Under the pieces are notes generated by a model. It saw only the letters and a program-made list of their open reading frames with translations, was not told where the DNA came from and did no database searches. From contig CAKUQQ010000010.1 in the NCBI GenBank assembly GCA_934675575.1, forward strand, positions 24,789 through 88,788: a stretch of DNA of 64,000 nt, given 5' to 3'. The stretch's first letter is position 1, and the number at the start of each line of letters is the position of its first letter. Of this stretch, positions 44,987 to 62,717 are shown one piece after another. The stretch is from an uncultured Muribaculaceae bacterium (GTDB lineage: Bacteria; Bacteroidota; Bacteroidia; Bacteroidales; Muribaculaceae). A program made the translations under genes and the position numbers.

Positions 44987-45083
44987 TTGTCTATGTTCTT
45001 TTTCAATTAAAGTCTTTCTTGCTGAGAGGCGGTGCGTTTGGCCGAATCGCCAGAACGAGAGTCTAATGCCTTTGCAGCGGCTG

Positions 45084-46022
45084 TTACTTCCACGACAGAA
45101 TTTGCATTTGACCATTGGCAGCGTTGTTGCACTGCACATAGAGGCGGTCGTTGTAGAAATCACAGTCCTCAAACTCAAAAGGCACTTCTGTCTGCATGTT
45201 TATGGCGTTGACCATAGTGTGCTTTTTGAGATTCCAGGAGTAGATTACGCTCGGATATTGCTTCGAGCCTACACCGGTGGGCATGATTAGGCAGTCACCG
45301 GCAATCACGCCGCCTTGCCCTATTTGCACGGCAGGAAAAGCAGAGTCGTAGTCTTGAATCAAGTAGTTCTCTATGATGTCGCTTTTCTTCAATATCACAG
45401 TTGAGCCCTGTTTCAGTTTAGGAAGTTTGAACACCATGATTCTGAAACGGTTGGCAGGGTCGGTGTTGTTGATAGTGTTGCCAAAGCCTATCAAGAGTTT
45501 GTGTTTCTTGTCAATGGCCCACTGCACAGCCCAGCCATAGTAGTCGTTGTGGTTGTCGAGCAGTATTGTCTGCACAAGCTCCGCCTTGCCTTCGGGCAAA
45601 ATGCGCTCCACAAAGCAGGCATCGGTTATGTTTTTGTCCTTGTCGGTCTTGGTTTGCGACACATAGAGCACTGGCATGGGGTCTGACTTGGCCACACGCT
45701 CCACGCCGAAGTTTGCCACGTTGGCATGGTTGTACTTCGACTGGCTTCCGAGCGGAAAGTTGACGAATTCCGTCCAGCTGCCATCTGGGCGCAGCCGTGC
45801 CAGCGATGCGTAGCCGCCGTTGCGCAAGCTCACCATGTAGTCTTTGTGAATGGCAAACCCCTGAAAACCCTCGTTGATGGTGCCGCGTTTCAGTGTCCCG
45901 GCATCAGTGAGCGTGTATCCGCTCAAATCCATGACACCCTTGTTGAGCTTTTGTGCCGACGCTGTGCTGCCCACACTAGCGACAGCAGCCACAGCCAATA
46001 TGGCAAGAAATGCTTTTCTCAT
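45084..46022 (-). CDS. Hypothetical exported protein, possible beta-propeller
   Basis: A protein of 312 aa with a signal peptide (MRKAFLAILAVAAVASVGSTASAQ). The mature part consists of repeated beta-strand segments with spaced aromatic and glycine residues (HKDYMVSLRNGGYASL, LYVSQTKTD, IYSWNLKKH), which suggests a beta-propeller, and has DGSWTEF- and ENYLIQDYDSAF-type turns. I recognise no specific family. It stands between the rubredoxin gene and the CobW gene on the minus strand. Confidence 0.65.
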   Translation of the reverse strand: MRKAFLAILAVAAVASVGSTASAQKLNKGVMDLSGYTLTDAGTLKRGTINEGFQGFAIHKDYMVSLRNGGYASLARLRPDGSWTEFVNFPLGSQSKYNHANVANFGVERVAKSDPMPVLYVSQTKTDKDKNITDACFVERILPEGKAELVQTILLDNHNDYYGWAVQWAIDKKHKLLIGFGNTINNTDPANRFRIMVFKLPKLKQGSTVILKKSDIIENYLIQDYDSAFPAVQIGQGGVIAGDCLIMPTGVGSKQYPSVIYSWNLKKHTMVNAINMQTEVPFEFEDCDFYNDRLYVQCNNAANGQMQILSWK

Positions 46023-46095
46023 ATAATTTCAATCTTGATTCTTCTGCGCTAAGATAGCACAATTTTGCGTTTGTTCTCAAGAGAAATTTTAATTT

Positions 46096-47247
46096 TCACA
46101 TGGTGCGCACTTCAAGACATTCGTCAAGGGCTTTCTCTATGGCAGCCTTGTCGAGGTGCTGGCCTATGAACACCAGCTTTTGCATGCGGTCGCCATATTT
46201 TTCGTCCCAGTCGCGGCGCAGCGTTGCGTCTTGCTGCAGGAGCTTTTCAAGCTCGTCGTGTGGCATTGTGGCATACCACTGTCCGGCGTTTTTGAGGTTC
46301 ACTTGCTTGCCGGCCTGCTCAAACACATAGCACGTTTCGCGCTCGTCGTTGAAATAGCAGATGCCTTTGGCGCGTATCACGTTTTTGGGCCATTTGCGTG
46401 ACACAAAGTCGTCGAAACGGTTGATGTCGAATGCCGGGCGACGGCAATAAACGTATGTGCCTATGCCATATTCCTCAACCTCGCCGCCGTGTTCCTCCTC
46501 TTCGTCGTGGTGACTTTCTATTTCGTTTATCCAAGTGGCAGATGTGGCCACTTTGTCGAAATCAAACATCTTGGTGTTGACAATTTTGGCAAGGTCAACA
46601 TTGCCGTAGTCACACTCTATAATCTCGGCCTTTGGCTGCAAAGCGCGTATAATTTCCTTGATTCGCTTCAAGTCGTCTTTCTGCACTTCAGAAGCCTTGT
46701 TGAGCAGCACAATGTTACAGAACTCTATTTGCTGAATCAGCAGGCTCTCAATGTCGTCTTCGTCGATGTTTTGGCGCATCAAGTCACCGCCTGATTTGAA
46801 CTCGTCTTTCATGCGCAAGGCATCTACCACGGTCACTATGCAGTCGAGGTTAGGGTATGCGCCATCATTGATTGCTTCTGGCACCATTGTTGGAATCGAG
46901 CAGATGGTCTGTGCGATTGGTGCCGGCTCGCAGATGCCGCTTGCCTCTATCACTATGTAGTCAAACTTGTTGAGCTTGGTGATGTCGCGCAACTGTTGCA
47001 CGAGGTCCATTTTCAGTGTGCAGCAGATGCAGCCGTTTTGCAGAGCTACGAGGCTGTCGTCTTTTTTTCCCACTATGCCGCCTTTCTCTATGAGGTTGGC
47101 ATCAATGTTGACCTCGCCAATGTCGTTGACGATAACTGCGAATTTGATCCCTTTCTCGTTGGCAAGAATGTGGTTGACCAGCGTGGTCTTGCCGCTGCCC
47201 AGATAACCAGTGAGCAGCATAACTGGTATGTTGTTGATTTTCATCAT
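46096..47247 (-). CDS. CobW/COG0523-family GTPase (metal chaperone type)
   Basis: A protein of 383 aa. The Walker A is GYLGSGKT (residues 14-21), the conserved metal motif is CICC (Cys73, 75, 76), and LNKAS is the G4 motif (about 183-187). A loop at about 245-259 is packed with histidines and glutamates (HHDEEEEHGG), and a CobW_C domain ends the protein. Members insert or deliver zinc, cobalt or other metals; which metal is not shown. Two ATGs stand at the start. A clear promoter lies at 47267-47298. Confidence 0.92.
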   Translation of the reverse strand: MMKINNIPVMLLTGYLGSGKTTLVNHILANEKGIKFAVIVNDIGEVNIDANLIEKGGIVGKKDDSLVALQNGCICCTLKMDLVQQLRDITKLNKFDYIVIEASGICEPAPIAQTICSIPTMVPEAINDGAYPNLDCIVTVVDALRMKDEFKSGGDLMRQNIDEDDIESLLIQQIEFCNIVLLNKASEVQKDDLKRIKEIIRALQPKAEIIECDYGNVDLAKIVNTKMFDFDKVATSATWINEIESHHDEEEEHGGEVEEYGIGTYVYCRRPAFDINRFDDFVSRKWPKNVIRAKGICYFNDERETCYVFEQAGKQVNLKNAGQWYATMPHDELEKLLQQDATLRRDWDEKYGDRMQKLVFIGQHLDKAAIEKALDECLEVRTM

Positions 47248-47266
47248 TAGAATGAATTTTAATATA

Positions 47267-47298
47267 CAAAAATATTACTCTATTATGGAGTTTGCAAA
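47267..47298 (-). promoter_or_regulatory. Promoter of the CobW-type gene
   Basis: On the minus strand TTTG (47295-47298), 20 bases, TATTTTTG (47267-47274). It lies 20 bases from the ATG. I see no Zur-like palindrome. Confidence 0.7.
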
Positions 47299-47350
47299 TT
47301 ATATGCCAAACGATATAGTGCCTTTTTGTCGTGAAATTATGTCAAGATGC

Positions 47351-48712
47351 CTATGGGGCTGGTTCAGCGATGCGCAGCTGTGCCAGTCGGTGCTTGAAGC
47401 AGATATAATATAGAATTCCGGCAAGCGTGAGTCCAAACGGAAAGGCCGACCACACGCCCACAAGTCCGCCGCCAAAGGTTATGCCAAAAATGTAGCTACA
47501 CGGAATCGACACCACAAAATAGGATATGAACGCCACAAGCATCATGGGCTTCACATGCGACAAACCTCGCAAGGCGTTGGAGAACGTGCATTGCAGTCCG
47601 TCGCCTACTTGATAGACGATCAGTGGCACTATTGTGGCCGACACGATTTGTGCCACGTCGGCAGAGTCGGTGAACAAATAGCCTATTGAGCCCTTAAAGA
47701 TTATCACTGGTATGCTCACGAGCACAGCCACCACCATAATCAAGTGAAATCCTGCCCAAGTTATGGGTGTGATGCTGTCGTAGTCGCGTGTGCCGTGATA
47801 CAGGCTCACCCTTATCGACACAGCAGCAGCTATGCCGAAATACACTTGGTAGAAAAGCATGCTCACGGTGAGCATTATCTGGTGGGCGGCAAGCGCGTTA
47901 GTGCCAATCCAGCCCACAATTATGCTGCACAGCGACCATGCACCAGACTCCATGCCCATCTGCATGCCGAGCGGCCAACCCATGCGGTTGATGAGCAAAA
48001 AGTGGTTACGGTTGAGGCAAGCCTTGGCAAAGGCAAGTCGCACGGTCTTGAACCGCGGCGATGCGAAAAACATTATCCAGATGGCTATTGCCATTATGAT
48101 GCGCGACACCAGTGTGGAGATTCCGGCGCCGAGCAGACCCATTTCTGGCAAACCACATTTTCCATAGATTAAAATCCAGTTGCCCACTATGTTGAGCAAA
48201 TTGCCGCCAAGCAACACCCACATAGGCATCTGCGTGTTGGCAGTGCCGTCGAATGTTTGCTTCATGGAGTTGAACCAGCACACAAACGGCACAGAGGCAA
48301 GGTTGACTATGTAGTATGACCGCATATACGGCAGCAGCTCCTCAGGTTGCCCCATTTTGTCGAGGAAGAAATAAAGCACGGTGTAGATTAGCATCAGCAG
48401 AGCCGCAAGCACGGTGTTGGCCAAAGTGGCATTTTTTACAATTGAGCCAATCCCGTCGTAATCGTGTTGGCCAAACATGCGTCCCACTATGGGTGTTATG
48501 CCATTGGCAAACCCAATGGCTATAAGCAGACCCAGCGTTAGCATGTTGCTCACAAAAGCTGCTGCTGCAAGCTCCACAGTGGAGTGGTGCCCAATCATCA
48601 GTGTGTCGGCAAAGTTGAGCACTATTGTGCCTATTTGACCAACGACGATAGGGAAACCCAGCGTGACCAGCGTGCGGTAGTGATGCTTATAGGTGTTGAA
48701 GTCTGTTGCCAT
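47351..48712 (-). CDS. MATE family multidrug/Na+ antiporter
   Basis: A protein of 453 aa with twelve membrane segments in two homologous halves. LGFPIVVGQIGTIVLNFADTLMIG and ANGITPIVGRMFGQ are family-typical. It exports cationic drugs or metabolites in exchange for Na+ or H+. The ATG at 48712 gives the standard N-terminus; the in-frame upstream extension of 28 residues does not resemble the family. It precedes the CobW-type gene on the same strand with its own gap of 103 bases. Confidence 0.93.
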   Translation of the reverse strand: MATDFNTYKHHYRTLVTLGFPIVVGQIGTIVLNFADTLMIGHHSTVELAAAAFVSNMLTLGLLIAIGFANGITPIVGRMFGQHDYDGIGSIVKNATLANTVLAALLMLIYTVLYFFLDKMGQPEELLPYMRSYYIVNLASVPFVCWFNSMKQTFDGTANTQMPMWVLLGGNLLNIVGNWILIYGKCGLPEMGLLGAGISTLVSRIIMAIAIWIMFFASPRFKTVRLAFAKACLNRNHFLLINRMGWPLGMQMGMESGAWSLCSIIVGWIGTNALAAHQIMLTVSMLFYQVYFGIAAAVSIRVSLYHGTRDYDSITPITWAGFHLIMVVAVLVSIPVIIFKGSIGYLFTDSADVAQIVSATIVPLIVYQVGDGLQCTFSNALRGLSHVKPMMLVAFISYFVVSIPCSYIFGITFGGGLVGVWSAFPFGLTLAGILYYICFKHRLAQLRIAEPAP

Positions 48713-48846
48713 AGGAAATTGAAAAAAGGTGATTATGTGGGCAATATCGCCCAAAAACAGCGCAAAGGTAGTCAAAATTTGCCACCTGTGACCCAATTAT
48801 GGGCGTTTGCAGCAGTTTGCTTGCTTAAAAGCCGCCCTTTTTAGGC

Positions 48847-48875
48847 TTTGGTGACGCAATTTAGGACTATCTTTG
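48847..48875 (+). promoter_or_regulatory. Promoter-like element of the small ORF at 48902
   Basis: TTTG (48847-48850), 17 bases (short), TATCTTTG (48868-48875). The exact -7 match supports the small downstream ORF as a real gene. Confidence 0.5.
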
Positions 48876-48901
48876 CACATTGTTAGTTAATCAGCGTGGC
48901 A

Positions 48902-49204
48902 ATGCAGGCATTGGCCAGTAGCTCGCTCAAAAAAAGAATATCCGTGATAGAAAAATACAGCATCGAGGAGGCTTATTGCTTCCTGCACCAAAAGTGGCGT
49001 GTGTATGAATACTCCAACAACCCCACGCAAAAAGACGACATAGAGCTTGCCATTGCCGACTATGTGGGCAGCATGAACCAGGCACTGTATGCCGAGCTTG
49101 CCCATGGCCGTGAGCACTTCTTGCTCGACCACAGCACATTTGTTACCGACATGGCTCAAGCCGTCAATGAGCTTGAAGCCATGCTCTTCCCTACCACCAA
49201 TTAA
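48902..49204 (+). CDS. Small hypothetical protein
   Basis: A protein of 100 aa, soluble and probably all-helical, with SLKKRISVIEKYSIEEAYCF and an acidic C-terminal half. I start at the ATG at 48902; a GTG six bases upstream is an alternative. A -7 element lies 26 bases before it, and coding to the TAA is uninterrupted. I recognise no family. It converges with the prfH gene, 15 bases away, and could belong to that locus. Confidence 0.6.
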   Translation: MQALASSSLKKRISVIEKYSIEEAYCFLHQKWRVYEYSNNPTQKDDIELAIADYVGSMNQALYAELAHGREHFLLDHSTFVTDMAQAVNELEAMLFPTTN

Positions 49205-49219
49205 CCACTGGCCGCCACT

Positions 49220-49831
49220 CTATAATTTCCCGGAAAACACTTTCACCGGATTTCCACGCACAAGTTCTGTGTGATTCAGCCAAGCTTCTTTGTTTGCAGA
49301 GTCTTGCAGTGATTTTACCATATCATAGAGCTTTAGTAGCAGACGCTCTCTGGCCAGCGACTTGTTTTGTGACTGGGAGCGTTCGTCAGAGCAACGCACA
49401 CTTGTGCCCGATGGTATGTGTGTGGCACGCACGGCAGTCTCCACCTTGTTGACGTTTTGACCGCCATGTCCTCCGCTTCGGCAGCATTCATAGCGAATGT
49501 CACTGTCTTTCACTTCAGGTAACTCCAGTTCGTCAATGAAGTTCACGCCCACAAACCAGTTGCGGCGTTTATGTCCTGGGCGATAGCTGTTGGCGGTGGC
49601 ACGGTAGAGCACAGTGCCTTCCCACTCATTAGCCATTGCTGTTATGGCGGTCTGTTCACCTTCTATGGAAAAGGTCATCGACATGAAGCACCCTGGCTCG
49701 GTGTTGTGTGGTTCCGACTCCACAAGTCGCATTGTGGGGTTGGCCTTCAGCATTTCTTTTGCCACCAGAGTCACGGCTCTGGCACATTCCACAGGCCCAC
49801 GGCCAGCTGTTATTTGAATATATTTTTTCAT
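49220..49831 (-). CDS. prfH: Release factor H (PrfH), RF-2-like peptidyl-tRNA hydrolase without codon domain
   Basis: A protein of 203 aa, half the length of RF1/RF2. The catalytic domain carries SGGHGGQNVNKVETAVRATH with the GGQ at residues 123-125, which releases nascent chains. The stop-codon recognition domain (PxT or SPF) is missing, as in all PrfH. Studies on PrfH with its RtcB partner indicate that it acts on ribosomes whose 16S rRNA decoding centre has been cut, so that RtcB can reseal it. Its ATG overlaps the rtcB stop by four bases (ATGA). It is the last gene of the unit. Confidence 0.93.
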   Translation of the reverse strand: MKKYIQITAGRGPVECARAVTLVAKEMLKANPTMRLVESEPHNTEPGCFMSMTFSIEGEQTAITAMANEWEGTVLYRATANSYRPGHKRRNWFVGVNFIDELELPEVKDSDIRYECCRSGGHGGQNVNKVETAVRATHIPSGTSVRCSDERSQSQNKSLARERLLLKLYDMVKSLQDSANKEAWLNHTELVRGNPVKVFSGKL

Positions 49832-51024
49832 TCTCCTGTGTCTTTAATGTTAAGTAGCGGTTTTATTATTTCAAGAATTTTTACGGTCGGTTCTATGGCC
49901 GCAATTATTTCATCAGTCGGTTTGTAGGCTTGTGGCGACTCGTCGATTGTGCCTTCACACACTGATGTGGAGAAAACTGCAGCCATTGACTCCTTGAATT
50001 CTTCAATTTCAATTTGCTTTTTTGCCTGAATGCGCGACATGGCACGTCCTGCGCCATGAGGAGCGGTATTGAGCCATGTGGGATTGCCTTTACCTTCGCA
50101 TATCGCAATGCCGTCGCGCATGTTGAATGGAATGCAGAGCAATTTGCCCTCAGAAGCATCAACTGCACCTTTGCGAAGCATTGGAGTCTCGTAGGTTAGG
50201 TCGATGTAGTTGTGGGTCGTGAAGATTGACTTCTGGCACTTTGCTTTGCATAATTTCTTTAGAACGGCAAAAATGCGGTCACGTATAACCTCGTGGTTAT
50301 AGCGTGCATAAGCCTGTGCAATGGCCATGTCGGAGAGATAGCCGTTGAGGGCATCGCCCCACAGATAGCCAATCATTGCGGCTCTCTTGGGGTTGTTGGC
50401 AATGTTGTGCCAATGGTTGGCGACTTTTACGCCCAGATTGCGCGAGCCGGTGTGAAGAGTCAGCCAGGGTGTGCCATCAGCAGATTCGCCATACTCTATG
50501 AAGTGGTTGCCACCGCCAAGTGAGCCTATGCTTTTGTAAAAAATACCCTCTTGTAACTTTATCCGCCGGCAGAAATCGGTTATGAACCGAGCATCAATTC
50601 TTGGGGCCTCATTTATAAGGTCGGGCGCGGCTGAACGTGCTTTCTTGTACTGAGAGTCAAGAAAACGGAACAGGTCTTTTTCGTTCAGGCTGTTTTTTGC
50701 ACATATATCCTTGCCCATGGGCACTATTTCGCGAATCCTGTGGTCGAGTAGAGCAAAGTCGTCTGGTGGCACTGGCATCGACAGCCCGTGCATTGATATT
50801 GTGCAGCCTATGTCCACACCCACATGGTCGGGGTTGACGTATGCGCCTATGCGATAGGCTGTGCCCACATTGCAGTTGTTGCCTGCATGCACATCTGGCA
50901 TTTGCACGATGCGCACCCCCTTAAATGCAGGGTGGTCGCATAATCTTTTCAGCCAGTCAAGAGCTGAGTCTTCAATATTTTCAGTAAAAATTTCGGCTTG
51001 TGTTTGTGTTCCTTGAATAATCAT
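49828..51024 (-). CDS. rtcB: RtcB-type RNA ligase (PrfH-associated)
   Basis: A protein of 398 aa. Metal and guanylylation residues are present: Cys74 in VGVDIGC, SLGGGNHFIE (His174), HTGSRNLG (His191), THNY (His271) and the guanylate-accepting His323 in APHGAGRAMSR. It joins 3'-phosphate or 2',3'-cyclic phosphate to 5'-hydroxyl RNA ends, the break left by many toxins. It is slightly shorter than E. coli RtcB (408 aa). Its start overlaps the DprA-like gene by four bases (ATGA) and its stop overlaps prfH, so the three are translationally coupled. No archease gene is present. Confidence 0.95.
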   Translation of the reverse strand: MIIQGTQTQAEIFTENIEDSALDWLKRLCDHPAFKGVRIVQMPDVHAGNNCNVGTAYRIGAYVNPDHVGVDIGCTISMHGLSMPVPPDDFALLDHRIREIVPMGKDICAKNSLNEKDLFRFLDSQYKKARSAAPDLINEAPRIDARFITDFCRRIKLQEGIFYKSIGSLGGGNHFIEYGESADGTPWLTLHTGSRNLGVKVANHWHNIANNPKRAAMIGYLWGDALNGYLSDMAIAQAYARYNHEVIRDRIFAVLKKLCKAKCQKSIFTTHNYIDLTYETPMLRKGAVDASEGKLLCIPFNMRDGIAICEGKGNPTWLNTAPHGAGRAMSRIQAKKQIEIEEFKESMAAVFSTSVCEGTIDESPQAYKPTDEIIAAIEPTVKILEIIKPLLNIKDTGE

Positions 51025-51821
51025 AATTTTAATGGGTTTGCAAGACCTTCTTCAATAAGTTTTTTGTTGCCGCTGTTGCAATTTGTTTGTGTGGCAAAAT
51101 CAACGGCAAGGCAGTTTTTGCGGTATTTGCGGGCAAAGCGCATGGTGTGCATTGAACCACTATGCTCCGGGCATTGTGCCAATATCACCGTTTTCGACAG
51201 TGCCGCTTGCAGCCTGTTGCGTGCCACAAGACGTGCGCCATTGGCTCTTGTACCTATTACTTGTTCAGACAAAAGCAGTCCGTCGCTTTCGAGAATTCGT
51301 TTCTGCAAAGGCACATTCTCCTTAGGGTGGGTGATGTCGAGACCCGATGCCACAATGGCAATGGTTTTGCCACCAACGCTTAGGCACCCCTCATGCGCTG
51401 CCTTGTCGCACCCTATGGCGAGTCCGCTAACTATCATGTTGCCATTCTTTGCATATTCTGCCCCACAACGGAATGCTGCATCAAGGCCTTGCCTGTCGGC
51501 GGCGCGAGCACCAATAATGGCCACTCCATTTTCTGTACCAAGCAGTTTGTCGTTGCCAAGCAGAAATATCAGTGCTGGGGCATCATTGTGTATGTCAGTC
51601 AGGCACTTCGGATATTCCGAATCTTGACAAGAAATTGTTATTATCCCCAGTTCTTCTTGCTTGTCAAAAGCCTTTTCCGCATAGTCGAGCCATTCGTCAA
51701 ATTGGTCGGCATTGTCGTCATAGAGCTTGTCAAATTGCGAGAGGTCTGTTTTTCTAATGTTTTGCGTGGTCATGCCAAACCTCTGCAAACAATAAATTTC
51801 TTCAATGGTTAGCTTTTCCAT
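51021..51821 (-). CDS. DprA/SMF-like Rossmann protein without C-terminal winged helix
   Basis: A protein of 266 aa. The SMF/SLOG core is complete: GVAIIGARAADRQG (99-112), VSGLAIGCDKAAHEG (131-145), ARNRLQAALSKTVILA (200-215), SGSMHTMRFA (221-230) and GNKKLIEEG (251-259). These are the DprA residues that bind phosphate and DNA or nucleotides. It lacks the C-terminal winged-helix (DML1) domain of competence DprA and has its own N-terminal helical part of about 80 residues (IEEIYCLQRFG, with a helix-hairpin look). It is the first gene of the rtcB-prfH unit, overlapping rtcB by four bases. Function here unknown; a role as sensor of a nucleotide or nucleic-acid damage signal is inference. Ordinary dprA would not be placed here. 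Confidence 0.85.
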   Translation of the reverse strand: MEKLTIEEIYCLQRFGMTTQNIRKTDLSQFDKLYDDNADQFDEWLDYAEKAFDKQEELGIITISCQDSEYPKCLTDIHNDAPALIFLLGNDKLLGTENGVAIIGARAADRQGLDAAFRCGAEYAKNGNMIVSGLAIGCDKAAHEGCLSVGGKTIAIVASGLDITHPKENVPLQKRILESDGLLLSEQVIGTRANGARLVARNRLQAALSKTVILAQCPEHSGSMHTMRFARKYRKNCLAVDFATQTNCNSGNKKLIEEGLANPLKL

Positions 51822-51989
51822 ACTTTTTCCCGTGTTTTTTGAAGTTATTATAATTCGTTGTGTTGTTTATTGCTGCGATGTATATAGCGTCAGAATCAAA
51901 GTGAAGAACCAATTACGACTCCTCACAATTCCTTTAAGTTGCAATCCTGATTTATAACACTAATTCTGTTTCAATGATAATTTGTCTTG

Positions 51990-52020
51990 CAAAAGTAATG
52001 CAAATCGCCAATATTGCAAA
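51990..52020 (-). promoter_or_regulatory. Promoter of the dprA-like/rtcB/prfH unit
   Basis: On the minus strand TTTG (52017-52020), 19 bases, TACTTTTG (51990-51997), an excellent match. Transcription would start near 51983, giving an unusually long leader of about 160 bases before the ATG at 51821. A second, weaker TTTG lies inside the spacer. No transcription-factor gene lies nearby. Confidence 0.75.
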
Positions 52021-52057
52021 ATAAAACAGCTATTTCTGTTTTGGAAAATTTATAGGG

Positions 52058-53137
52058 TTAGGTGCCTAGGTAAAGGTGGGCTTTGGGCAGCTTGGCGCAT
52101 AGTGCCATTATGACAAATGTTATGGCAAATGTGATTATGGCCGTGAGCGGTATTGCTGCTGCCACGGAGCTGAATTGCGGAGCCAAGGTCTCATGCACAC
52201 TGTTGAGCACCATGATGTGTGCCAGATACACGGAGTAGCTTATGACCGATGCACGGCAGACGATGCGGCCCACAAGGCTTGTGTGGCTGAGCTTCACGCG
52301 ACTTATCAACCCGAATAATCCGAGGGTCATCATAGCCACATTTATGGTGCAGAAATTCCAGCTCAGTTCCACATCGGCGGCTTGGGTCACAACCGTTGCC
52401 TGATGGTTGAACACTATGGCTGTAATGGCATATCCGGCAACGAGCATAGCTGCCGAGGCTTGCCACGACGGTGCACCATATTTGCGCACATAACTACCAA
52501 GCAGCAAGAAGCCGGCAAATCCGTTGAAGTAATAAAACGTTGGGGTCGGGTTCCATGAGCACTCGCCGAGCACTTCGGGCCACACCTGGTGAAAGTAGGG
52601 CAGCAGCGTGGAGAACGCCCACACAAGCAGGTAGGCGCGCATCTCGCGTTTGCCGCATTGCCGCACCCATGGCGATATGACCGGGATTATGGCATAGACC
52701 CCGACAATCATATACACATACCACAAATGTCCCACTTCTGTGCCCCAGTTTATGGGTGTGTGCGCAATGTGGTCAAGGCAATCGGCCACACTGTCGCCGC
52801 GCCAGAATGTGTAGTAAACGGCATAGGCTATGCACCAGAACACAAATGGCAGCAACACTCTGGCAAACCGTTTCTTGAAGAATGCTGAAGCTGCAGTCTC
52901 GCGCATTGGCAGCAGAAAATAGCCTGACAGCATCACGAAAAGCGGCACGCTTGTACGGGCCAAGCTGTCGAGCCAACCAATGACGCTGGCTTGGTTCCCG
53001 GCAGAGAAAACGCCGTTGTCTCCTATGTAATAGAATTCGGTGGTGTGCTGCCACACCACAAGCAGACATGCCAGCACGCGCAGCAGGTCAAGCGACACAT
53101 TGCGCTCTGCGCAGGTGCTGGTTGGTTCGTTACTCAT
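52058..53137 (-). CDS. Acyltransferase 3 family membrane protein
   Basis: A protein of 359 aa with ten membrane segments. SLDLLRVLACLLVVWQHTTEF carries the family histidine, and VPLFVMLSGYFLLP and RVLLPFVFWC follow the OafA/WecH pattern. It transfers acetyl or another acyl group to a surface glycan. It is separated from the AAA-DUF4435 gene by 21 bases and lies before the dprA-like unit, which has its own promoter. Nothing connects it functionally to either neighbour, but co-transcription with the ATPase is likely. Confidence 0.9.
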   Translation of the reverse strand: MSNEPTSTCAERNVSLDLLRVLACLLVVWQHTTEFYYIGDNGVFSAGNQASVIGWLDSLARTSVPLFVMLSGYFLLPMRETAASAFFKKRFARVLLPFVFWCIAYAVYYTFWRGDSVADCLDHIAHTPINWGTEVGHLWYVYMIVGVYAIIPVISPWVRQCGKREMRAYLLVWAFSTLLPYFHQVWPEVLGECSWNPTPTFYYFNGFAGFLLLGSYVRKYGAPSWQASAAMLVAGYAITAIVFNHQATVVTQAADVELSWNFCTINVAMMTLGLFGLISRVKLSHTSLVGRIVCRASVISYSVYLAHIMVLNSVHETLAPQFSSVAAAIPLTAIITFAITFVIMALCAKLPKAHLYLGT

Positions 53138-53158
53138 AGTGATTGTGTGTTGGTACGT

Positions 53159-54775
53159 TTATTTTTGAGTTTGTTGTTCTGCTGCTGGTTGCAGTAAAAT
53201 CAAAGGGTTGCTCTCATCTATGCCGAAACAGCGTTTTATGGCGTGGCGTATGGTTTGCGCCTCCTCGCAGCCCGATTTCAAGATGTTGAGCACTGCGGTT
53301 ATGTATTCGTCCTTGTTTGTGAGGCCGCACAAGTGCGCCACGTTGCTTGCCACGAGCATAGTCTTTTCGTTATACACGCGCAGCACTTGCAGATAATCGG
53401 CAGTGTCGGCATAAGTGCGGAACTGACGGCACAGCTCATTGTAAGTGCCACGTGGATTGATTTCGTTCACCAAATCCACCATGTGCTCTTCAAGGGCGTT
53501 GATGTTGCGGAAACGCATGTCGATGCGCACCTCCACATCGTGTTTCACCTTGTGACGCACATGCATCAAGGCTTGTTTGTGCAGGTCGCGGCGGAACATT
53601 TCTATCACGGCAGCCTTCACCTTGTTGAGCGCATTTCGCTCGTTGCGGTGTCGGGCATGAGCCACGGCGGTTATCACGTCGGGCAGCATGAGTATGTTCT
53701 CTATCTCAGCCACGTTGGGCACCAATATCTTTTTGTCGCGCAGATATTGCACCTCTTGCATGCCTCTGCGGTCTCTGTCAACTATGCCCCAGCTGTCGAG
53801 GTGATGAAAGCTGCGCAAGTCATTGAACGACCTCACTGATTCTATCACTTTCTCACAACTGCCGAGCGGCTTCACCGTGTAGTCGGGAAAAATAAGCGGA
53901 TACAAGCGGTTGTCGATGCTGTGGGTGGCATCGCCCTCTATGAACAGCACTGGTTTGCGCGTGCCGAGTATGTCGTAATACAAATTGTCAGAAAGAGGGC
54001 TGCCAGGCTCAAACACTTCGTAGTCCCAAGTGGCACGTGCAGGCTCGTAGCTTTTAACCCACACGCACTTGTTGTCGATGCGCGATGATGCAAAATCCAC
54101 GTCGTGGGTGTTGTAGATGAATGTGCAGTCGGGGCGCATTTCCTCTATAACGTTCCACAACGCTTGCATTATGGAGGGGTGAATGAACGTTTCTGGGTCA
54201 TCAACAAAAATCACGGCCTCGGGCATGGCATATAGCACAGCTCCTATGTAATAGAGCACGGTGCGCTCGCCGTCGCTCAATCGCAGTGCCGAGTAAGTGT
54301 CCTGGTGGCCTTCGGTGGTGAACATGAGTTTGCCGTTGGCTCGCAGTATTTTGTTTTGCGGAAATATCTCCTGCCACATCTTCACGGTCTTGTCGAGCCT
54401 CGTCTTTGGAAACACCGCCTCCTCGTGCATCAGCAGATGCGCCTTATAGTTCATCAGTTCACGGAACTCGTCGGCGAGCATTATATAGGTCAACTTTTCA
54501 AATTCGGTTTTGGCTCCGCTTTGCGCCAGCGAATTGCTTTTGTTCACCTGGGCAAACATGTCATCAATTGAGCCTTTGAGCAGCGACGGCTCCGTCTGTG
54601 GAAACATGGCTTTAAGTGCCGATATGCGATAGGCTTTGTCGCCGCACTCGTTCACGAGCCAGTTGCAAAAACGGCTTTTTCCTGAGCCGTTTGCGCCTAT
54701 GAGTGTCACTTGCCGTGCGTTTCTTAGCACATAGGCTTCTTGTCCGTTGGTTTTGTCGGGTAGTTTAATGTCCAT
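53159..54775 (-). CDS. AAA ATPase with C-terminal DUF4435 domain
   Basis: A protein of 538 aa. An ABC/SMC-like ATPase has Walker A GANGSGKS (27-34), signature LSDGERTV (166-173), Walker B VIFVDDPE (188-195) and an H-loop THD (223-225). A TOPRIM-like DUF4435 domain follows with VLFIEGD (Glu280) and WGIVDRDRRG (Asp333, Asp335), typical acidic metal-binding positions. OLD-like ATPases of this plan occur in phage-defence systems, but this exact protein is not characterised. I chose the ATG at 54775; a TTG at 54826 would add 17 residues. The acyltransferase gene follows after 21 bases. The C-terminus is glutamine-rich. Confidence 0.87.
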   Translation of the reverse strand: MDIKLPDKTNGQEAYVLRNARQVTLIGANGSGKSRFCNWLVNECGDKAYRISALKAMFPQTEPSLLKGSIDDMFAQVNKSNSLAQSGAKTEFEKLTYIMLADEFRELMNYKAHLLMHEEAVFPKTRLDKTVKMWQEIFPQNKILRANGKLMFTTEGHQDTYSALRLSDGERTVLYYIGAVLYAMPEAVIFVDDPETFIHPSIMQALWNVIEEMRPDCTFIYNTHDVDFASSRIDNKCVWVKSYEPARATWDYEVFEPGSPLSDNLYYDILGTRKPVLFIEGDATHSIDNRLYPLIFPDYTVKPLGSCEKVIESVRSFNDLRSFHHLDSWGIVDRDRRGMQEVQYLRDKKILVPNVAEIENILMLPDVITAVAHARHRNERNALNKVKAAVIEMFRRDLHKQALMHVRHKVKHDVEVRIDMRFRNINALEEHMVDLVNEINPRGTYNELCRQFRTYADTADYLQVLRVYNEKTMLVASNVAHLCGLTNKDEYITAVLNILKSGCEEAQTIRHAIKRCFGIDESNPLILLQPAAEQQTQK

Positions 54776-54938
54776 AGAGCAAAAAAGGTTTGCTAAATTC
54801 CATTCGGCCTTATGCTTCTTTGCCAATGTGGAATTGTGTGCCCTAAGTTAAGCATAAAATTGCAAAAGGAGATGGCGGCTTTGGTCAAAATGCCGCTTTG
54901 CGAGTGCATTTTTGAGGTTTACGCCAGAAGTGTGACGT

Positions 54939-55727
54939 TTAGAGCGTGTCGTTGCCCTCGGCTGTGGCAAGCACTTGCTGGCGGAATATGGAATCGGTCT
55001 TTAGCCGCTTCAGGGCCTGCTTCGACGCGCCTTGGTGCGACTCTTTCTTGCTATAGCCCACAGCGTCGCTGGCAAATATGCCGCCCAAAATCACGGCTGT
55101 TTTGAAAATAGGGTTGTTTTCGCTGTCGGCATAAGTGTCTATCAGCTCAAACTCTATTGTTACCCTGAATTTTTGCGTCCACTCTATGAGCCTCGACTTG
55201 AAGTTCTGCTCGGTTTTCACGAGCTTGTTGATGTCGATGTAACGCTTTATGATGCGTTCTTCTATGAATTTTTGCGCCACTTTGTAGCCGTGGTCAATGT
55301 AGATGGCACCCACAAGAGCTTCCACCACATTGCCGTTTATGTAGGAGTTGTGCGACTGCGAGTGTGCGGCAGCTCTCACCCTCTGGTCGAGGTGCATAAG
55401 TCCTCCTATGCGGTTCAAACTCTCGCGTTGCACTATTTTTGCCCTGGTGGCAGTAAGGAAGCCTTCGTGCTGGTTGGGATAGTGGCGATATAGATAGTCT
55501 GCAACCACAGCGTCGAGTATTCCGTCGCCCAGGTATTCGAGCCTCTCGTTGTTGGCCCAGTGCTGGCCGTCGAGAGCCTTTACCGGCATGGAGCGGTGCA
55601 CAAAAGCGAGTTTGTAAAGAAAAATGTCATGCGGCAAAACGCCGGTTGTGGAGCGAATAAAAGCATAAAGCTCCCTATCCTTAGAGAAAAGGAGCTTTAT
55701 GTAAGGTATGATGTTTGATAGGAACAT
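54939..55727 (-). CDS. rnc: Ribonuclease III
   Basis: A protein of 262 aa. The RNase III signature ERLEYLGDGILDAVV is intact; its Asp and the downstream Glu (NVVEALVGAIYID) bind magnesium. A double-stranded RNA-binding domain follows (NFKSRLIEWTQ to KQALKRL). It cuts rRNA precursors and structured mRNA. I use the ATG at 55727; a GTG 12 bases upstream is possible. It follows fabF by 45 bases, the standard acpP-fabF-rnc order of Bacteroidetes. Confidence 0.95.
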   Translation of the reverse strand: MFLSNIIPYIKLLFSKDRELYAFIRSTTGVLPHDIFLYKLAFVHRSMPVKALDGQHWANNERLEYLGDGILDAVVADYLYRHYPNQHEGFLTATRAKIVQRESLNRIGGLMHLDQRVRAAAHSQSHNSYINGNVVEALVGAIYIDHGYKVAQKFIEERIIKRYIDINKLVKTEQNFKSRLIEWTQKFRVTIEFELIDTYADSENNPIFKTAVILGGIFASDAVGYSKKESHQGASKQALKRLKTDSIFRQQVLATAEGNDTL

Positions 55728-55772
55728 TTTCAAGTGCACAGAGGTGAGTGTTCCTTGATAACCTCAAGGAAA

Positions 55773-57035
55773 TTAACCTTTGAATTTCTTGACAATGATG
55801 CTTGCATTGTGACCACCAAAGCCAAATGTGTTAGACAGAGCGTAATCGACAGTGCGCTTCTGGGCTTTGCCAAAAGTGAAATTCATGTTATAGTCGATTT
55901 CCTCGTCTTTGTCGTCCTCGGCGTGGTTGATGGTAGGCGGCACAATGTCTTCCTGACACGACTTAACGCAGAACAATGCTTCCATAGCACCGGTAGCGCC
56001 GAGCATGTGGCCAGTCATTGATTTTGTTGAGCTTACGTTGAGTTCATAGGCATGGTCGCCAAACACTTCGGCTATAGCCTTTGTCTCCGACAGGTCACCC
56101 ACATGGGTTGATGTGCCGTGGGCATTGATGTAGTCGATTTTGTCGGCAGAAATGCCTGCATCATCGAGTGCGCGTTGCATCACGAGTTTTGCACCGAGTC
56201 CTTCGGGGTGGCTTGCGGTGATGTGATAAGCATCGCCCGACATGCCTCCGCCCACAACTTCAGCATAAATCTTGGCACCACGGGCCTTGGCGTGCTCATA
56301 TTCCTCAAAGATGAGGCACACACCACCTTCGCCAATCACGAAGCCGTCGCGCGATGCGCTAAACGGACGTGAGGCTGTCTCCGGGCTGTCGTTGCGTGTC
56401 GAAAGGGCCTTCATTGAGTTGAAGCCGCCCACACCGGCAGGGAACACCGGAGCTTCAGAGCCACCGGTCACGATAGCCTCGGCCTTGCCCAGACGCACCA
56501 AGTTGAATGCGTCAATCATTGCGTTGGTCGATGTTGCGCACGCTGAAACCACACCGTAGTTTGGTCCTCTCAGTCCCCACTTGATTGATATATGTCCGGC
56601 AGCTATGTCGGCAATCATCATAGGGATAAAGAAAGGGTTATACATAGGGCCGTTGGCTTCGTGCAGCGCATAATAGCCAGCTTGTTCCTCAAATGTGTGA
56701 AGACCGCCTATGCCTGATGCAAAGACCACACCCACGTTGTCGAGGTCAAAACTTCCGTCGAGCATGCTGGCGTCTTCAATTGCTTGCTTGGCGCACGCCA
56801 TGGCATATTGCGCATAGAGGTCCATTCTCTTGAACTCCTTGCGGTCCATGTAGTCGGCAGGGTTGAAGCCCTTTACCTCACAGGCAAAATGAGTTTTGAA
56901 CAGCGAGCTGTCAAAATGCGTAATAGGTCCAGCGCCACTCACACCTTTCAAGGCGTTGTTCCAAACGGACTCAACGTCGTTTCCAAGTGGAGTAATGGCA
57001 CCCAGGCCTGTTACTACAACTCTCTTTAAATCCAT
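55773..57035 (-). CDS. fabF: Beta-ketoacyl-ACP synthase II
   Basis: A protein of 420 aa, normal length. It condenses malonyl-ACP with acyl-ACP in fatty-acid elongation. The nucleophile is Cys166 in VVSACATST, and the catalytic histidines are in NAHGTSTHVGD and MTGHMLGATG. The C-terminal NTFGFGGHNAS is canonical. It follows acpP by 33 bases. Confidence 0.97.
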   Translation of the reverse strand: MDLKRVVVTGLGAITPLGNDVESVWNNALKGVSGAGPITHFDSSLFKTHFACEVKGFNPADYMDRKEFKRMDLYAQYAMACAKQAIEDASMLDGSFDLDNVGVVFASGIGGLHTFEEQAGYYALHEANGPMYNPFFIPMMIADIAAGHISIKWGLRGPNYGVVSACATSTNAMIDAFNLVRLGKAEAIVTGGSEAPVFPAGVGGFNSMKALSTRNDSPETASRPFSASRDGFVIGEGGVCLIFEEYEHAKARGAKIYAEVVGGGMSGDAYHITASHPEGLGAKLVMQRALDDAGISADKIDYINAHGTSTHVGDLSETKAIAEVFGDHAYELNVSSTKSMTGHMLGATGAMEALFCVKSCQEDIVPPTINHAEDDKDEEIDYNMNFTFGKAQKRTVDYALSNTFGFGGHNASIIVKKFKG

Positions 57036-57068
57036 ATTTACAGGAATAATAGAAGTTTTTTAAGCTAA

Positions 57069-57308
57069 TTATTCAGCTTTAGCGTCTTCGATAAACTTGA
57101 TGGCGTCACCAACAGTTTGGATAGTTTCAGATTTCTCGTCTGGAATTTTGATACCGAATTCTTTCTCGAATTCCATAATCAACTCCACTGTGTCGAGTGA
57201 GTCAGCACCAAGATCCTGTGCAAATGTAGCTTCTGGTGTAACAGCTGATTCGCTTACGCCCAATTTGTCAACGATGATAGATTTTACTCTTTCTGCAATT
57301 TCAGACAT
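57069..57308 (-). CDS. acpP: Acyl carrier protein
   Basis: A protein of 79 aa, acidic, four-helix type. The phosphopantetheine serine is Ser37 in [11 protein letters not shown]. It carries acyl chains for fatty-acid synthesis together with the FabF encoded just downstream. A promoter-like element of the TTACTTTG variety lies at 57358-57365 on the minus strand. Confidence 0.98.
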
Positions 57309-57356
57309 AATAATATAAATTTAAAAAGTTAAAATTAATGTTTCTAATTTTGCTCG

Positions 57357-57419
57357 GCAAAGTAAGCAATTATTATTCAAATAATAAAGTAATTCTCTCA
57401 ATAAAAGCACTTACTTTGC
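57357..57419. promoter_or_regulatory. Mirror-image promoter-like elements between acpP and the secreted basic protein gene
   Basis: GCAAAGTAAG (57357-57366) and CTTACTTTGC (57410-57419) are a perfect 10-base inverted repeat 43 bases apart. Each contains a TTACTTTG -7-like element, one pointing to acpP, the other away from it. It lies in the 367-base gap 57309-57675, which holds no other gene I can support. The rightward element is 258 bases from the next ATG, so that gene probably has a second, closer promoter. Confidence 0.45.
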
Positions 57420-57675
57420 ACTTTTTAATGCAAAGTGGGCAGCTTTGGTGCGTGTTTTAGAAATTTTATAAGAAAACAAAAGTTAAAAAACGTAAACTTT
57501 TTCATTAACATCACCCCCGCTGACACCCAAGTGGCTGAATGACAAAATTTTATCATCATTTTTGTTGAATTAAACCGATAAGCACCACAAAAGTCTAAAC
57601 TACAAATTAACAATATTGCTCCTTTTTCAATGCGTTGGCAGCAACCAGGCGAAAGGACATTAATAATTAAGGATT

Positions 57676-59034
57676 ATGACTACTTTACGAAACATGATGA
57701 TGGGCGTGATGCTCATGGGAAGCGTGACAATGGCGTTTCCAGCTATGTCGCAAGTGATGACAGGCCATCGCGGAACTAATTCCGGACAGTCTTCCGGCAT
57801 GGGAGCTCCGGCAGTAGAGAGAAAAAGCAGCAACCGAAGCATGATGGGCATGCCCAGCGCACCAGCCGGCCGTGGTTCGGGCAATAACATAGAAAGACGC
57901 ATGCAGTCGGCACCACAGCAGCAAAGCGGCAGCCGCAGCAGTGCTTTTGGCGGTGGACGCGTGTTTGGATCTGGCAACCACAATGCCATGCAGAGCTCGC
58001 CAGCGAGCGAGGCAAGGCGTGAAACACAGCCAAACGTTAACCACTGGCCGTCGCAAAACAACTCCACTCCACGTCAATTCGGAGGCGGAAACAATGCGCC
58101 GTCGCGCCGCAACGAGTCAACAGGCAATCGCCGCGTGTTTGGAGCTGGCAACAACGATTTCAGTCGCAGTACAATAACTGGTGGTGGCCCTGTGAAAGTG
58201 GAGAGTCGCCAATACAACAATTCTGGTGGCAATTTCAGTCCTGCTGGCAATGGCGGTTCTGGTCGCATGCCAGGCCGCAATCCAGGCAACAACGGCATTA
58301 ATCCCGGAAAGAATAATGGTGGTGGTAACTTTAACGCCCCTGGTGGCAACAATGGAGGTGCAGGCCGCCGTCCAGGCTACAATCCGGGCAACAACCGCGC
58401 TCCTGGAGGCAACAGGGCCTATGCTCCAGAGCCACCGCGCCAAGAGCGTTTTGGAGGCTATCGCAACCGTGGCGACTTCGACCGTCGCCGCGAGGCCATC
58501 AACCGCAACTACCGCCGTGGTTTCTGGCACGGAGCTTTTGTTCCGCCGCCACCACGCCCATATCGTCCACGCTACGTTAGCGTCTATGCCCCGGTTCGTC
58601 CCTATGGCTGGACACCACGCTATGGCGTTCCGTTGATTGACGGAGTCCTCGGACTCACATTTGGCACACTCTATGATGCCGCGCTCAATTACCTGTACGA
58701 CATGAACTATGCAATCGATGGCTGGGCAAACGACTTGGTTTATTTGCGCGACGTTCCAGTGATGCGCTTCACTTGGCCAGATGCAATGATTAGGTTCGAC
58801 AACTATCGCCGCATGAACTATGTGCAGTTGGTTTATTCCTCTCCATATTACGACCGCTCACGCCTGCGCAGCCTCTACAGCGACCTTTGTGTCACCTACG
58901 GCAGCCCGGTTTCGTTCCGCGACGACGCACTCACGCAAGTGTCGTGGTATGGTGGCGACGGACGAGGCTACGTAACGCTCCGCTACGACAACGTCAATGG
59001 TCGTTATTACACCACACTCTCATTCGGCCGCTGA
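57676..59034 (+). CDS. Secreted Gly/Asn/Arg-rich low-complexity protein with structured C-terminal domain
   Basis: A protein of 452 aa. A signal peptide (MTTLRNMMMGVMLMGSVTMA) precedes about 240 residues of low-complexity sequence rich in glycine, asparagine, arginine and serine (GGNNGGAGRRPGYNPGNN and similar), then a proline/tyrosine stretch PPPPRPYRPRYV and a folded C-terminal domain of about 150 residues with MNYVQLVYSSPYYDRSRL and SWYGGDGRGYVTLRY. The protein is strongly basic. The C-terminal part is DUF-like and typical of Bacteroidetes surface proteins; function is unknown. A good terminator follows. Confidence 0.75.
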   Translation: MTTLRNMMMGVMLMGSVTMAFPAMSQVMTGHRGTNSGQSSGMGAPAVERKSSNRSMMGMPSAPAGRGSGNNIERRMQSAPQQQSGSRSSAFGGGRVFGSGNHNAMQSSPASEARRETQPNVNHWPSQNNSTPRQFGGGNNAPSRRNESTGNRRVFGAGNNDFSRSTITGGGPVKVESRQYNNSGGNFSPAGNGGSGRMPGRNPGNNGINPGKNNGGGNFNAPGGNNGGAGRRPGYNPGNNRAPGGNRAYAPEPPRQERFGGYRNRGDFDRRREAINRNYRRGFWHGAFVPPPPRPYRPRYVSVYAPVRPYGWTPRYGVPLIDGVLGLTFGTLYDAALNYLYDMNYAIDGWANDLVYLRDVPVMRFTWPDAMIRFDNYRRMNYVQLVYSSPYYDRSRLRSLYSDLCVTYGSPVSFRDDALTQVSWYGGDGRGYVTLRYDNVNGRYYTTLSFGR

Positions 59035-59127
59035 CAAAGATTATAAAATTGACAGAAGCGTTTTTGCTCCATACATAAAGTTGCGAGCAAAGACAGCACC
59101 TCAATAAAAGAAACAAAGATAGCCAAA

Positions 59128-59166
59128 TGGGCTGCGTTCCTAAATAGAACGCAGCCCATCTTTTTT
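59128..59166. terminator. Terminator after the secreted basic protein gene
   Basis: TGGGCTGCGTTC (59128-59139) pairs with GAACGCAGCCCA (59147-59158), 7-base loop, then TCTTTTTT. Confidence 0.92.
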
Positions 59167-59219
59167 CACCAGTTGCAAATTCGGCAATCATGGATTGCTC
59201 ATGGCATATTAGCTGAAAC

Positions 59220-60896
59220 TCATATTCTGAAACCTATTTGGCCATAGGTTTTGCTTGCAATGCGCTCGTTTTTACAAATTTCAATTATTGACTGAATGTC
59301 AACGCTGTCTTTTCCCGACAAAATGGAATTAACTGCATATTTTCGCGAAATATTCTCAATTTCTCCCCCCGATAGGTCAAATTTCGAGGCCAATATGTTG
59401 GCGTCATTCAGCGTCAGCATAGGCATCAATTGCTGCCAGATTTGTGCGCGGCACGCAGGTGTTGGACGATTGAATTTGATTTTGTAAAGGAAGCGGCGCT
59501 CAAACGCTTTGTCTAGATTGGCTGTTATGTTGGTTGTGGCAATCATGATGCCTTCAAGCGATTCCATTTCTTGAAGTATTATGTTTTGTATGGAGTTCTC
59601 CATTTTATCCACAGCTCGTGTTGCGCCTTCCATTCTCACTCCAAGTATGGCGTCAGCTTCATTGAAAAGCAAAATCGGAACAATTTTTGTCTGCTTGCAC
59701 GCATTACGGTAAATGTCGAAAAACTTCTTTATGTTTTGCTCGCTTTCACCCACCCAGCAACTCTTGATTTTGTCAACGTCAACACGCAAAATGTCGCGCC
59801 CGGTGGCACGAGCTATCTGATACACTGTCTCCGTTTTGCCAGTGCCTGGGGCCCCATAGAACAAGCAGCAAAAACCGGTTCTCATCTGGGCGTCGCGCAG
59901 CCGTTTCTGAACGGCATGGAAATGGTCGGCTGACAGTATCGATGAAAGCTCTTTGACTTGCGCTCGCTCCGATTCATTATAAATCAACCGCTTTTCCGGT
60001 AAAGAGGCGCATTTTGTCAATTGCTTGCTTTGTTGTGGTTGAATTTTCAAGTCCAGTTCAGACAACAACTCATTTTTGGCGTATTCCGTTAATTCAAAAG
60101 CATTGGGGTTGGCCATGCCGTCTTCGTTGGCATTTTCAATTAATTTATGCTTAAACAGCGATAACTTCCTTTTTTTCAATCCGTCCTTACACCAATACGG
60201 CAATTTTTGATTGTCGTAAAGACCCTCAAGTTGGTAAAAGTGTATGTTGTCGTCACAATCATCAACAAAAAGATGTGCCATGAATATGAATAACAAACGT
60301 TCCTCCTCTGTCAACTTAAATTGTGAGAGCATTCTTGAAAAATGGGTGGCGGCTATTCTGGAAAAGGCGTTGTTGGTGCACTCAAGAATTGCTTTGTGTG
60401 TCAGCTCAGCATTGCTGATTTCTTCACCCAAATCGTTCAAATAATCAAAGAATGATAATAGGTCGTTAACTGGTGTTTCAACATACACGTAGGGCTCGTT
60501 TTTAATCAAAGCATTTTGCACATCTAAAGGCACGCGATAAGAAACTCTGCCATTGCATCTCGACACCTTTATGTAGCGCATTTTTTCCAAGACATCGATT
60601 TCCGGTGAGAGCTGCAGGATTTTGATATTGCTGCAGCCGGTGTCATCTGCAATATGCGACAATTTAATGCAGCAGTCGTCGCTGTGCGAAACAAACAAGG
60701 CAAGCAGAACCGATTGTGTTTCGGAAAGTTCCAATTTTTGTGAGACATATTTTATATATGGCGACGCTTTCTTGAAAAAGTTTGCGGACAATTTGGAGTT
60801 TTCGGCCAGTTCAACAATCTGTTCAAATGCTTCAAGCATACTTTTCACACGAACACTTTTCGTGCTTTTTTCTTGTTTTGTTTGATTTGTCGGCAT
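59220..60896 (-). CDS. AAA ATPase with altered Walker B and long N-terminal helical region
   Basis: A protein of 558 aa. Residues 1-300 form a helical region with winged-helix-like parts, then a classical AAA domain with Walker A GAPGTGKT (348-355), SCWVGESEQNIKKFF, Walker B LLFNEADAIL where Asn412 replaces the usual Asp and Glu413 is kept, and TTNITANLDKAFERRF (sensor 1 and arginine fingers). FtsH-, katanin- or ClpX-like remodellers share this core. The ATG at 60896 is chosen. The gene is AT-rich compared with its neighbours and stands alone, converging with a terminator. Substrate unknown; a mobile or defence origin is possible. Confidence 0.8.
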   Translation of the reverse strand: MPTNQTKQEKSTKSVRVKSMLEAFEQIVELAENSKLSANFFKKASPYIKYVSQKLELSETQSVLLALFVSHSDDCCIKLSHIADDTGCSNIKILQLSPEIDVLEKMRYIKVSRCNGRVSYRVPLDVQNALIKNEPYVYVETPVNDLLSFFDYLNDLGEEISNAELTHKAILECTNNAFSRIAATHFSRMLSQFKLTEEERLLFIFMAHLFVDDCDDNIHFYQLEGLYDNQKLPYWCKDGLKKRKLSLFKHKLIENANEDGMANPNAFELTEYAKNELLSELDLKIQPQQSKQLTKCASLPEKRLIYNESERAQVKELSSILSADHFHAVQKRLRDAQMRTGFCCLFYGAPGTGKTETVYQIARATGRDILRVDVDKIKSCWVGESEQNIKKFFDIYRNACKQTKIVPILLFNEADAILGVRMEGATRAVDKMENSIQNIILQEMESLEGIMIATTNITANLDKAFERRFLYKIKFNRPTPACRAQIWQQLMPMLTLNDANILASKFDLSGGEIENISRKYAVNSILSGKDSVDIQSIIEICKNERIASKTYGQIGFRI

Positions 60897-61063
60897 ATCA
60901 GAAATATTTAAAGTCGTTTGTGTGTATGAATCATTTGTTAGTTGGCACAAAATTACGCCCAGCATGTATCAATAGGTGCTACACGTATATTTTTTTGAGG
61001 GGGATATATGCTTTTACACTAAAACACTTGCTGCAAGATCTTTTTTGATAAATAGAAAAATCA

Positions 61064-62640: not shown

Positions 62641-62713
62641 GATTCGCTAGCTCAGCTGGTAGAGCACAACACTTTTAATGTTGGGGTCTTGGGTTCGAGC
62701 CCCAAGCGGATCA
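62641..62713 (+). tRNA. tRNA-Lys (anticodon TTT)
   Basis: All parts fold. The acceptor stem pairs GATTCGC with GCGGATC (one G-T wobble), the D arm has GCTC/GAGC, the anticodon arm CAACA-CTTTTAA-TGTTG with anticodon TTT, a 5-base variable loop GGGTC, the T arm TTGGG-TTCGAGC-CCCAA and discriminator A. CCA is not encoded. A terminator follows at 62718. Confidence 0.97.
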
Positions 62714-62717
62714 CTTG

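Follow-up and report, generated by a model that had tools for sequence, protein, structure and literature searches.

The window analysed here is a 64,000-nucleotide stretch of DNA from an uncultured Muribaculaceae bacterium (assembly GCA_934675575.1, contig CAKUQQ010000010.1, positions 24,789 to 88,788 of the forward strand), and our subject is a set of three head-to-tail genes on its minus strand that encode a DprA-like protein, an RtcB RNA ligase and PrfH. The dprA-like gene comes first (51021..51821; 266 residues), followed by rtcB (49828..51024; 398 residues) and prfH (49220..49831; 203 residues). Each stop overlaps the next start as ATGA, at 51021..51024 between dprA-like and rtcB and at 49828..49831 between rtcB and prfH; the overlapping three-gene unit described in an earlier note on this DNA is thus confirmed with exact coordinates. 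A −4 gap is also seen at one more pair of same-strand frames elsewhere in the window, so we regard four-base overlaps of this kind as ordinary operon signs. A match on the minus strand to the pattern TTTG-N19-TACTTTTG, which we take to be the Bacteroidales promoter consensus, lies at 51990..52020, 168 nucleotides 5′ of the dprA-like start; the pattern is matched nine times in the whole window, against 1.59 matches expected from shuffled sequences. The next gene upstream, across a gap of 236 nucleotides, encodes an Acyl_transf_3 protein. A scan of positions 45000-60000 with Rfam at the gathering score revealed no structured RNA near the operon. Judging from this layout, dprA-like, rtcB and prfH are likely to form a single transcription unit. 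The trio looks intact and is co-directional, consisting of a known core and a first gene of the DprA fold.

The assignment of the core is clear. PrfH scores 195.4 bits with TIGR03072, above the cut-off of 166.65 bits, the model spanning residues 4–202, and its GGQ motif is invariant across 11 aligned sequences; with 203 residues the chain is too short for release-factor domain 1, which is absent. RtcB is assigned by PF01139 (E 1.2e-55, 190 bits) and carries the stretches DVHAG, VDIGC, GGGNHF and HGAGR, as aligned with solved RtcB chains. Its score with TIGR03073, the equivalog model for E. coli-type RtcB2, is 81.4 bits against a cut-off of 271.8 bits, and it is the partner of PrfH by position, outside this narrow subfamily: as in the PrfH–RtcB ribosome rescue module, rtcB immediately precedes prfH in the same orientation. 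Pairs of this kind were described in 2006 (PMC1586002). In the E. coli system as described in PMC9223846, colicin E3 cuts 16S rRNA in the decoding centre; PrfH can release the peptide from a ribosome damaged in this way, and the break, which has 2′,3′-cyclic-phosphate and 5′-OH ends, is rejoined by RtcB2. The pair protects against colicin E3, and rtcB2 alone on a high-copy plasmid likewise restores resistance (PMC9223846). The RtcB–PrfH pair and the role ascribed to it in the earlier note are borne out (PMC9223846, PMC6514570; TIGR03072, PF01139), and the pair in the window is identified, with peptide release and resealing assigned by family, as the known ribosome-rescue and rRNA-repair pair.

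The product of the first gene consists of an N-terminal helical domain and an SMF/DprA Rossmann domain (PF02481, E 6.7e-56). Structure prediction of the protein alone, a step proposed in the earlier note, gave a confident DprA fold in which the extended Rossmann domain of the DprA/Smf fold is present; the chain stops after this domain, whereas full-length DprAs run longer. The winged helix of competence DprA, which the protein had been said to lack, is indeed absent from both the alignment and the model. The score with TIGR00732, the model for DprA of natural transformation, is 163.1 bits against a cut-off of 191.15 bits that is passed by four of five full-length DprAs and by neither of two other short ones. 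In a phylogenetic tree, all seven full-length DprA rows split from the short DprA-like family with a support of 100/100, and a longer DprA frame (278–412 residues) was also matched in 12 of 12 PrfH-bearing genomes of one set. Pocket residues such as R106, S185–E186, R201–N202–R203 and G222–S223 are invariant in 19 aligned sequences, and with this conserved Rossmann pocket the protein may be expected to bind a nucleotide or single-stranded nucleic acid.

The earlier note had gone further, proposing that the DprA-like subunit is the built-in sensor of the repair system. To establish how regularly the gene accompanies rtcB-prfH, we surveyed 397 Muribaculaceae genomes, in which RNase III is at most 72% identical to that of the window, the DNA of close relatives not being in the sample. 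A position near Muribaculaceae is indicated by this RNase III comparison and by the organisms named for the nearest named relatives of the proteins. PrfH is present in 49 of these genomes, including one of the 101 from the nearest sampled genus, and short DprA-like genes, counted at E 1e-40 or better, are present in 24. PrfH loci were mapped in 45 of the 49 PrfH genomes, matches starting less than 130 bases from a contig end (G239, G134, G158 and G224) and the additional PrfH sites in G003 and G012 being left out; with G006, G007, G407 and G408 these make 49 loci, of which 48, nearly all from Muribaculaceae, were kept after L028, with no rtcB on its piece, had been dropped. At least 1 kb was available on both sides at 37 of the 48. 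A DprA-like gene stands beside rtcB-prfH at a single mapped locus (L241, in G386). At 24 further rtcB-prfH loci, mostly from other groups but with L013 within the family (L013–L027, L029–L032, L038, L050 and L088–L090), no DprA match above 40 bits was found within flanks of up to 6 kb per side. One genome scan gave at least 80 loci, a large share of which are ordinary release factors. Among viral contigs, 30 loci match the PrfH profile; three of them have both rtcB and prfH, and none shows a DprA match above 40 bits. None of six viral DprA-like loci has an rtcB or prfH match. Even in G002, the genome with the closest PrfH among those found (73%), the DprA-like gene is alone on a different contig. 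Other rtcB-prfH cores thus seldom have a DprA-like gene beside them. Its absence beside most rtcB-prfH pairs is the outcome that the earlier note had named beforehand as speaking against its proposal, and a sensor built into this repair system as such is, with 1/48 and 0/24 loci, mostly not borne out.

In 25 DprA-like regions from 24 genomes, which exclude the weaker matches L170–L173, the close same-strand partners vary: they include UPF0227 hydrolases, an ADP-ribosylglycohydrolase, several unknowns and a 1490-residue protein that matches sacsin/HATPase weakly, and in one region the partner is rtcB-prfH. One region holds two DprA-like genes with one gene between them (L158:5138-8098; 66% and 39% identical to that of the window); a bpMoxR ATPase gene follows immediately downstream, and a metallophosphoesterase and WYL genes are found nearby in the same region. 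A more distant DprA-like gene lies beside a HAD hydrolase gene in L170:1937-8781 and L171:7302-8780, the hydrolase being called by a Pfam run for L170 and likened to it by eye for L171; a homologue of Zorya ZorA lies about 5 kb off in L170.

The best explanation, to which we assign a probability of about 0.68, is that a known RtcB–PrfH repair operon of a Muribaculaceae-like gut bacterium has gained a DprA paralogue without winged helix as its first gene in one lineage. The DprA-like gene has the look of a local addition, not of a core sensor.

Several observations weigh against this reading and have to be set beside it. DprA-like genes and PrfH occur together in six genomes (G002, G047, G069, G125, G273 and G386) where about three would be expected (Fisher one-sided p 0.061). 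A gene of the RNA-repair islands described below is found in 4 of the 25 DprA-like regions (L158, L169, L274 and L278, L169 having a 48% WYL match only), compared with 1 of 40 evenly spaced control regions; these are raw counts, and the control regions, taken from seven genomes, with a DprA-like host (G228) and a PrfH host (G102) among them, are on average longer than the DprA-like regions. There is accordingly a mild tendency of DprA-like and RNA-repair genes to share neighbourhoods, not a fixed partnership. Furthermore, L241 in G386 has the order rtcB-prfH-dprA on one strand with 27 nucleotides between prfH and dprA, a second linkage with another gene order. Finally, DprA, RtcB and PrfH matches are found on equally sized contigs of 135541, 6241 and 43790 bases, on which the DprA identities are 100, 88 and 73%; equal size is here a proxy for the same contig, drawn from protein matches in which no gene order is seen. 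This suggests that the trio has been kept in the lineage of the window down to about 73% DprA identity. DprA and PrfH also match contigs of 11826 bases, with no RtcB of that size among the 120 matches listed. The top clusters of identical or near-identical proteins comprise 28 contigs for PrfH, 43 for RtcB and 4 for DprA, which could mean that many strains lack the DprA-like gene; the counts seem not to be comparable between the three proteins, and we draw nothing from them.

The tree bears on whether the two linkages have a common origin. It covers a portion of the DprA-like loci and leaves out G143, G302, G218 and G331, where the gene has internal stops. The starred set that holds the DprA of the window has eight members (97/91), and the one that holds the DprA of G386 has fourteen (95/97); most other placeable rows of both sets are not beside rtcB-prfH, and several protein-only rows have no location. 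The tree program counted one change for the label ‘adjacent’, but as this was set only against the seven full-length DprA rows, the count is uninformative on one versus two origins. Together, the tree and the different gene order favour two separate gains of the linkage, although one ancient linkage, lost many times, is possible.

The usual neighbours of rtcB-prfH in Muribaculaceae suggest a different candidate for a regulator. A divergent WYL-WCX regulator gene lies just upstream of rtcB-prfH at 32 of 42 loci. A second RtcB is encoded farther upstream at 18 of 36 loci, and another WYL gene is present at 16 of 36 and a metallophosphoesterase at 14 of 36; an AAA ATPase gene lies just downstream of prfH at 17 of 43. 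In an extended RNA-repair island, seen at L003, L217, L229 and L251 among others, the divergent WYL gene is combined with the second RtcB and its own WYL gene, the metallophosphoesterase and, at some loci, the AAA ATPase. The 64 kb of the window hold no WYL, second RtcB or metallophosphoesterase homologue of the island, only the AAA ATPase (59220-60965, minus strand), which sits 8 kb from the trio and shares 57% identity with the product of the gene that immediately follows prfH in L002. WYL domains are predicted to be ligand-binding regulators of defence systems (PMC4012209). The accessories of RFH–RtcB pairs given in section 2.4 of PMC6514570 are TPR, Pol-beta NTase, zinc-ribbon and charged proteins; DprA is not among them in that section, the supplementary list standing apart from this statement. 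A literature search, outside which a 2016 survey of RNA repair lay, did not find PrfH and DprA together.

The sensor proposal of the earlier note can be weighed as a rival explanation, in which the DprA-like protein serves this operon as a functioning sensor or regulator that binds a nucleic-acid end or nucleotide formed in the course of damage and controls or recruits RtcB–PrfH. The position of its gene at the head of an operon with four-base overlaps, the second linkage in G386, the likely retention of the linkage to 73% DprA identity by equal contig sizes, the invariance of the pocket residues in 19 sequences and the absence of the usual divergent WYL gene (32/42 loci) from both the window and L241 are all in keeping with such a role, but the gene is missing at 47 of 48 mapped loci and at all 24 others, its family elsewhere adjoins unrelated genes, and of the ten loci without the divergent WYL gene only one has a DprA-like gene. 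We consider this explanation unlikely, if less so than those that follow: given two linkages, each of which lacks the usual WYL gene, a sensor is possible for this lineage, and as a general feature of RtcB–PrfH it fails. Highly doubtful is the more specific proposal that the DprA-like protein has here replaced the WYL-type ligand-binding regulator that in this family is normally encoded opposite rtcB-prfH, so that a nucleic-acid sensor of the DprA/SLOG fold would gate ribosome repair, with G386 as a second swap.

Two further explanations derive from defence systems. A PADLOC profile of the ShosA type matches the DprA-like protein with 201 bits and five full-length DprAs with 178–237 bits; a conclusion from this match to ShosA membership was rejected, the match being non-specific, with full-length DprAs scoring about equally. 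A toxin–antitoxin-like defence unit, with the DprA-like protein as an antitoxin or defence regulator of the ShosA or PsyrA type, is a very improbable reading of the trio, no PRTase (ShosT) toxin gene being adjacent; the flanks are rtcB and, beyond the 236-nucleotide gap, the Acyl_transf_3 gene. The window also encodes a PARIS-like defence protein, a single-protein AriAB (53159-54826, minus strand; PADLOC AriAB, 337 bits), and its location, on the strand of the trio and 1.3 kb upstream of it, could be taken to mean that the trio repairs tRNA cut by AriAB, in recovery from the cell's own defence. For the published AriB, a 3′-OH end has been confirmed and a 5′-phosphate is expected, ends that differ from the 2′,3′-cyclic-phosphate and 5′-OH ends joined by RtcB (PMC12409363), and AriAB matches are found in 0 of 29 DprA-like regions and at 0 of 53 PrfH loci (two of them duplicates; flanks of up to about 8 kb). 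We rejected the link on this cut-end chemistry and on the absence of AriAB near other copies, and hold it to be barely credible. The only tRNA found in the window is a tRNA-Lys (anticodon ttt; 62641-62714, plus strand). tRNA-Lys(UUU) is a substrate of the published AriB (PMC12409363), and the presence of this tRNA in the same window as AriAB is probably a coincidence.

Returning to the preferred reading, in which a repair operon has gained a DprA paralogue, the events may be pictured as follows. The paralogue would have been recruited from an accessory gene family of these Muribaculaceae bacteria, and dprA-like, rtcB and prfH would be co-transcribed from the promoter match upstream. As in E. 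coli, PrfH would free the peptide when a ribosome has been cut in its decoding centre and RtcB would reseal the break, the DprA-like protein being presumably a co-expressed accessory and not an obligatory subunit of the repair. A functional role for it in the operon is possible; if it mattered, a protein of the DprA/SLOG fold would gain a role in RNA repair. As to how PrfH-type repair of ribosomes is turned on in bacteria once rRNA has been damaged, the more useful lead here is the family-wide neighbourhood, in which the divergent WYL protein is a candidate, and testable, regulator of RtcB–PrfH repair.

Comparison with known systems places the trio as follows. Unlike DprA/Smf of natural transformation, the DprA-like protein has no winged helix, falls below the TIGR00732 cut-off and belongs to a separate clade; unlike ShosA of ShosTA, it has no neighbouring PRTase gene, and its profile match is non-specific. 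The RFH–RtcB neighbourhoods likewise have accessory genes around a two-gene core, DprA not being listed in the section of PMC6514570 cited above. With RtcB2–PrfH of E. coli ATCC 25922 the window shares rtcB followed directly by prfH as well as the family motifs (PMC9223846), its PrfH being about 35% identical to the E. coli copies; to the layout of the E. coli operon (PMC9223846) the window adds the dprA-like gene at the 5′ end.
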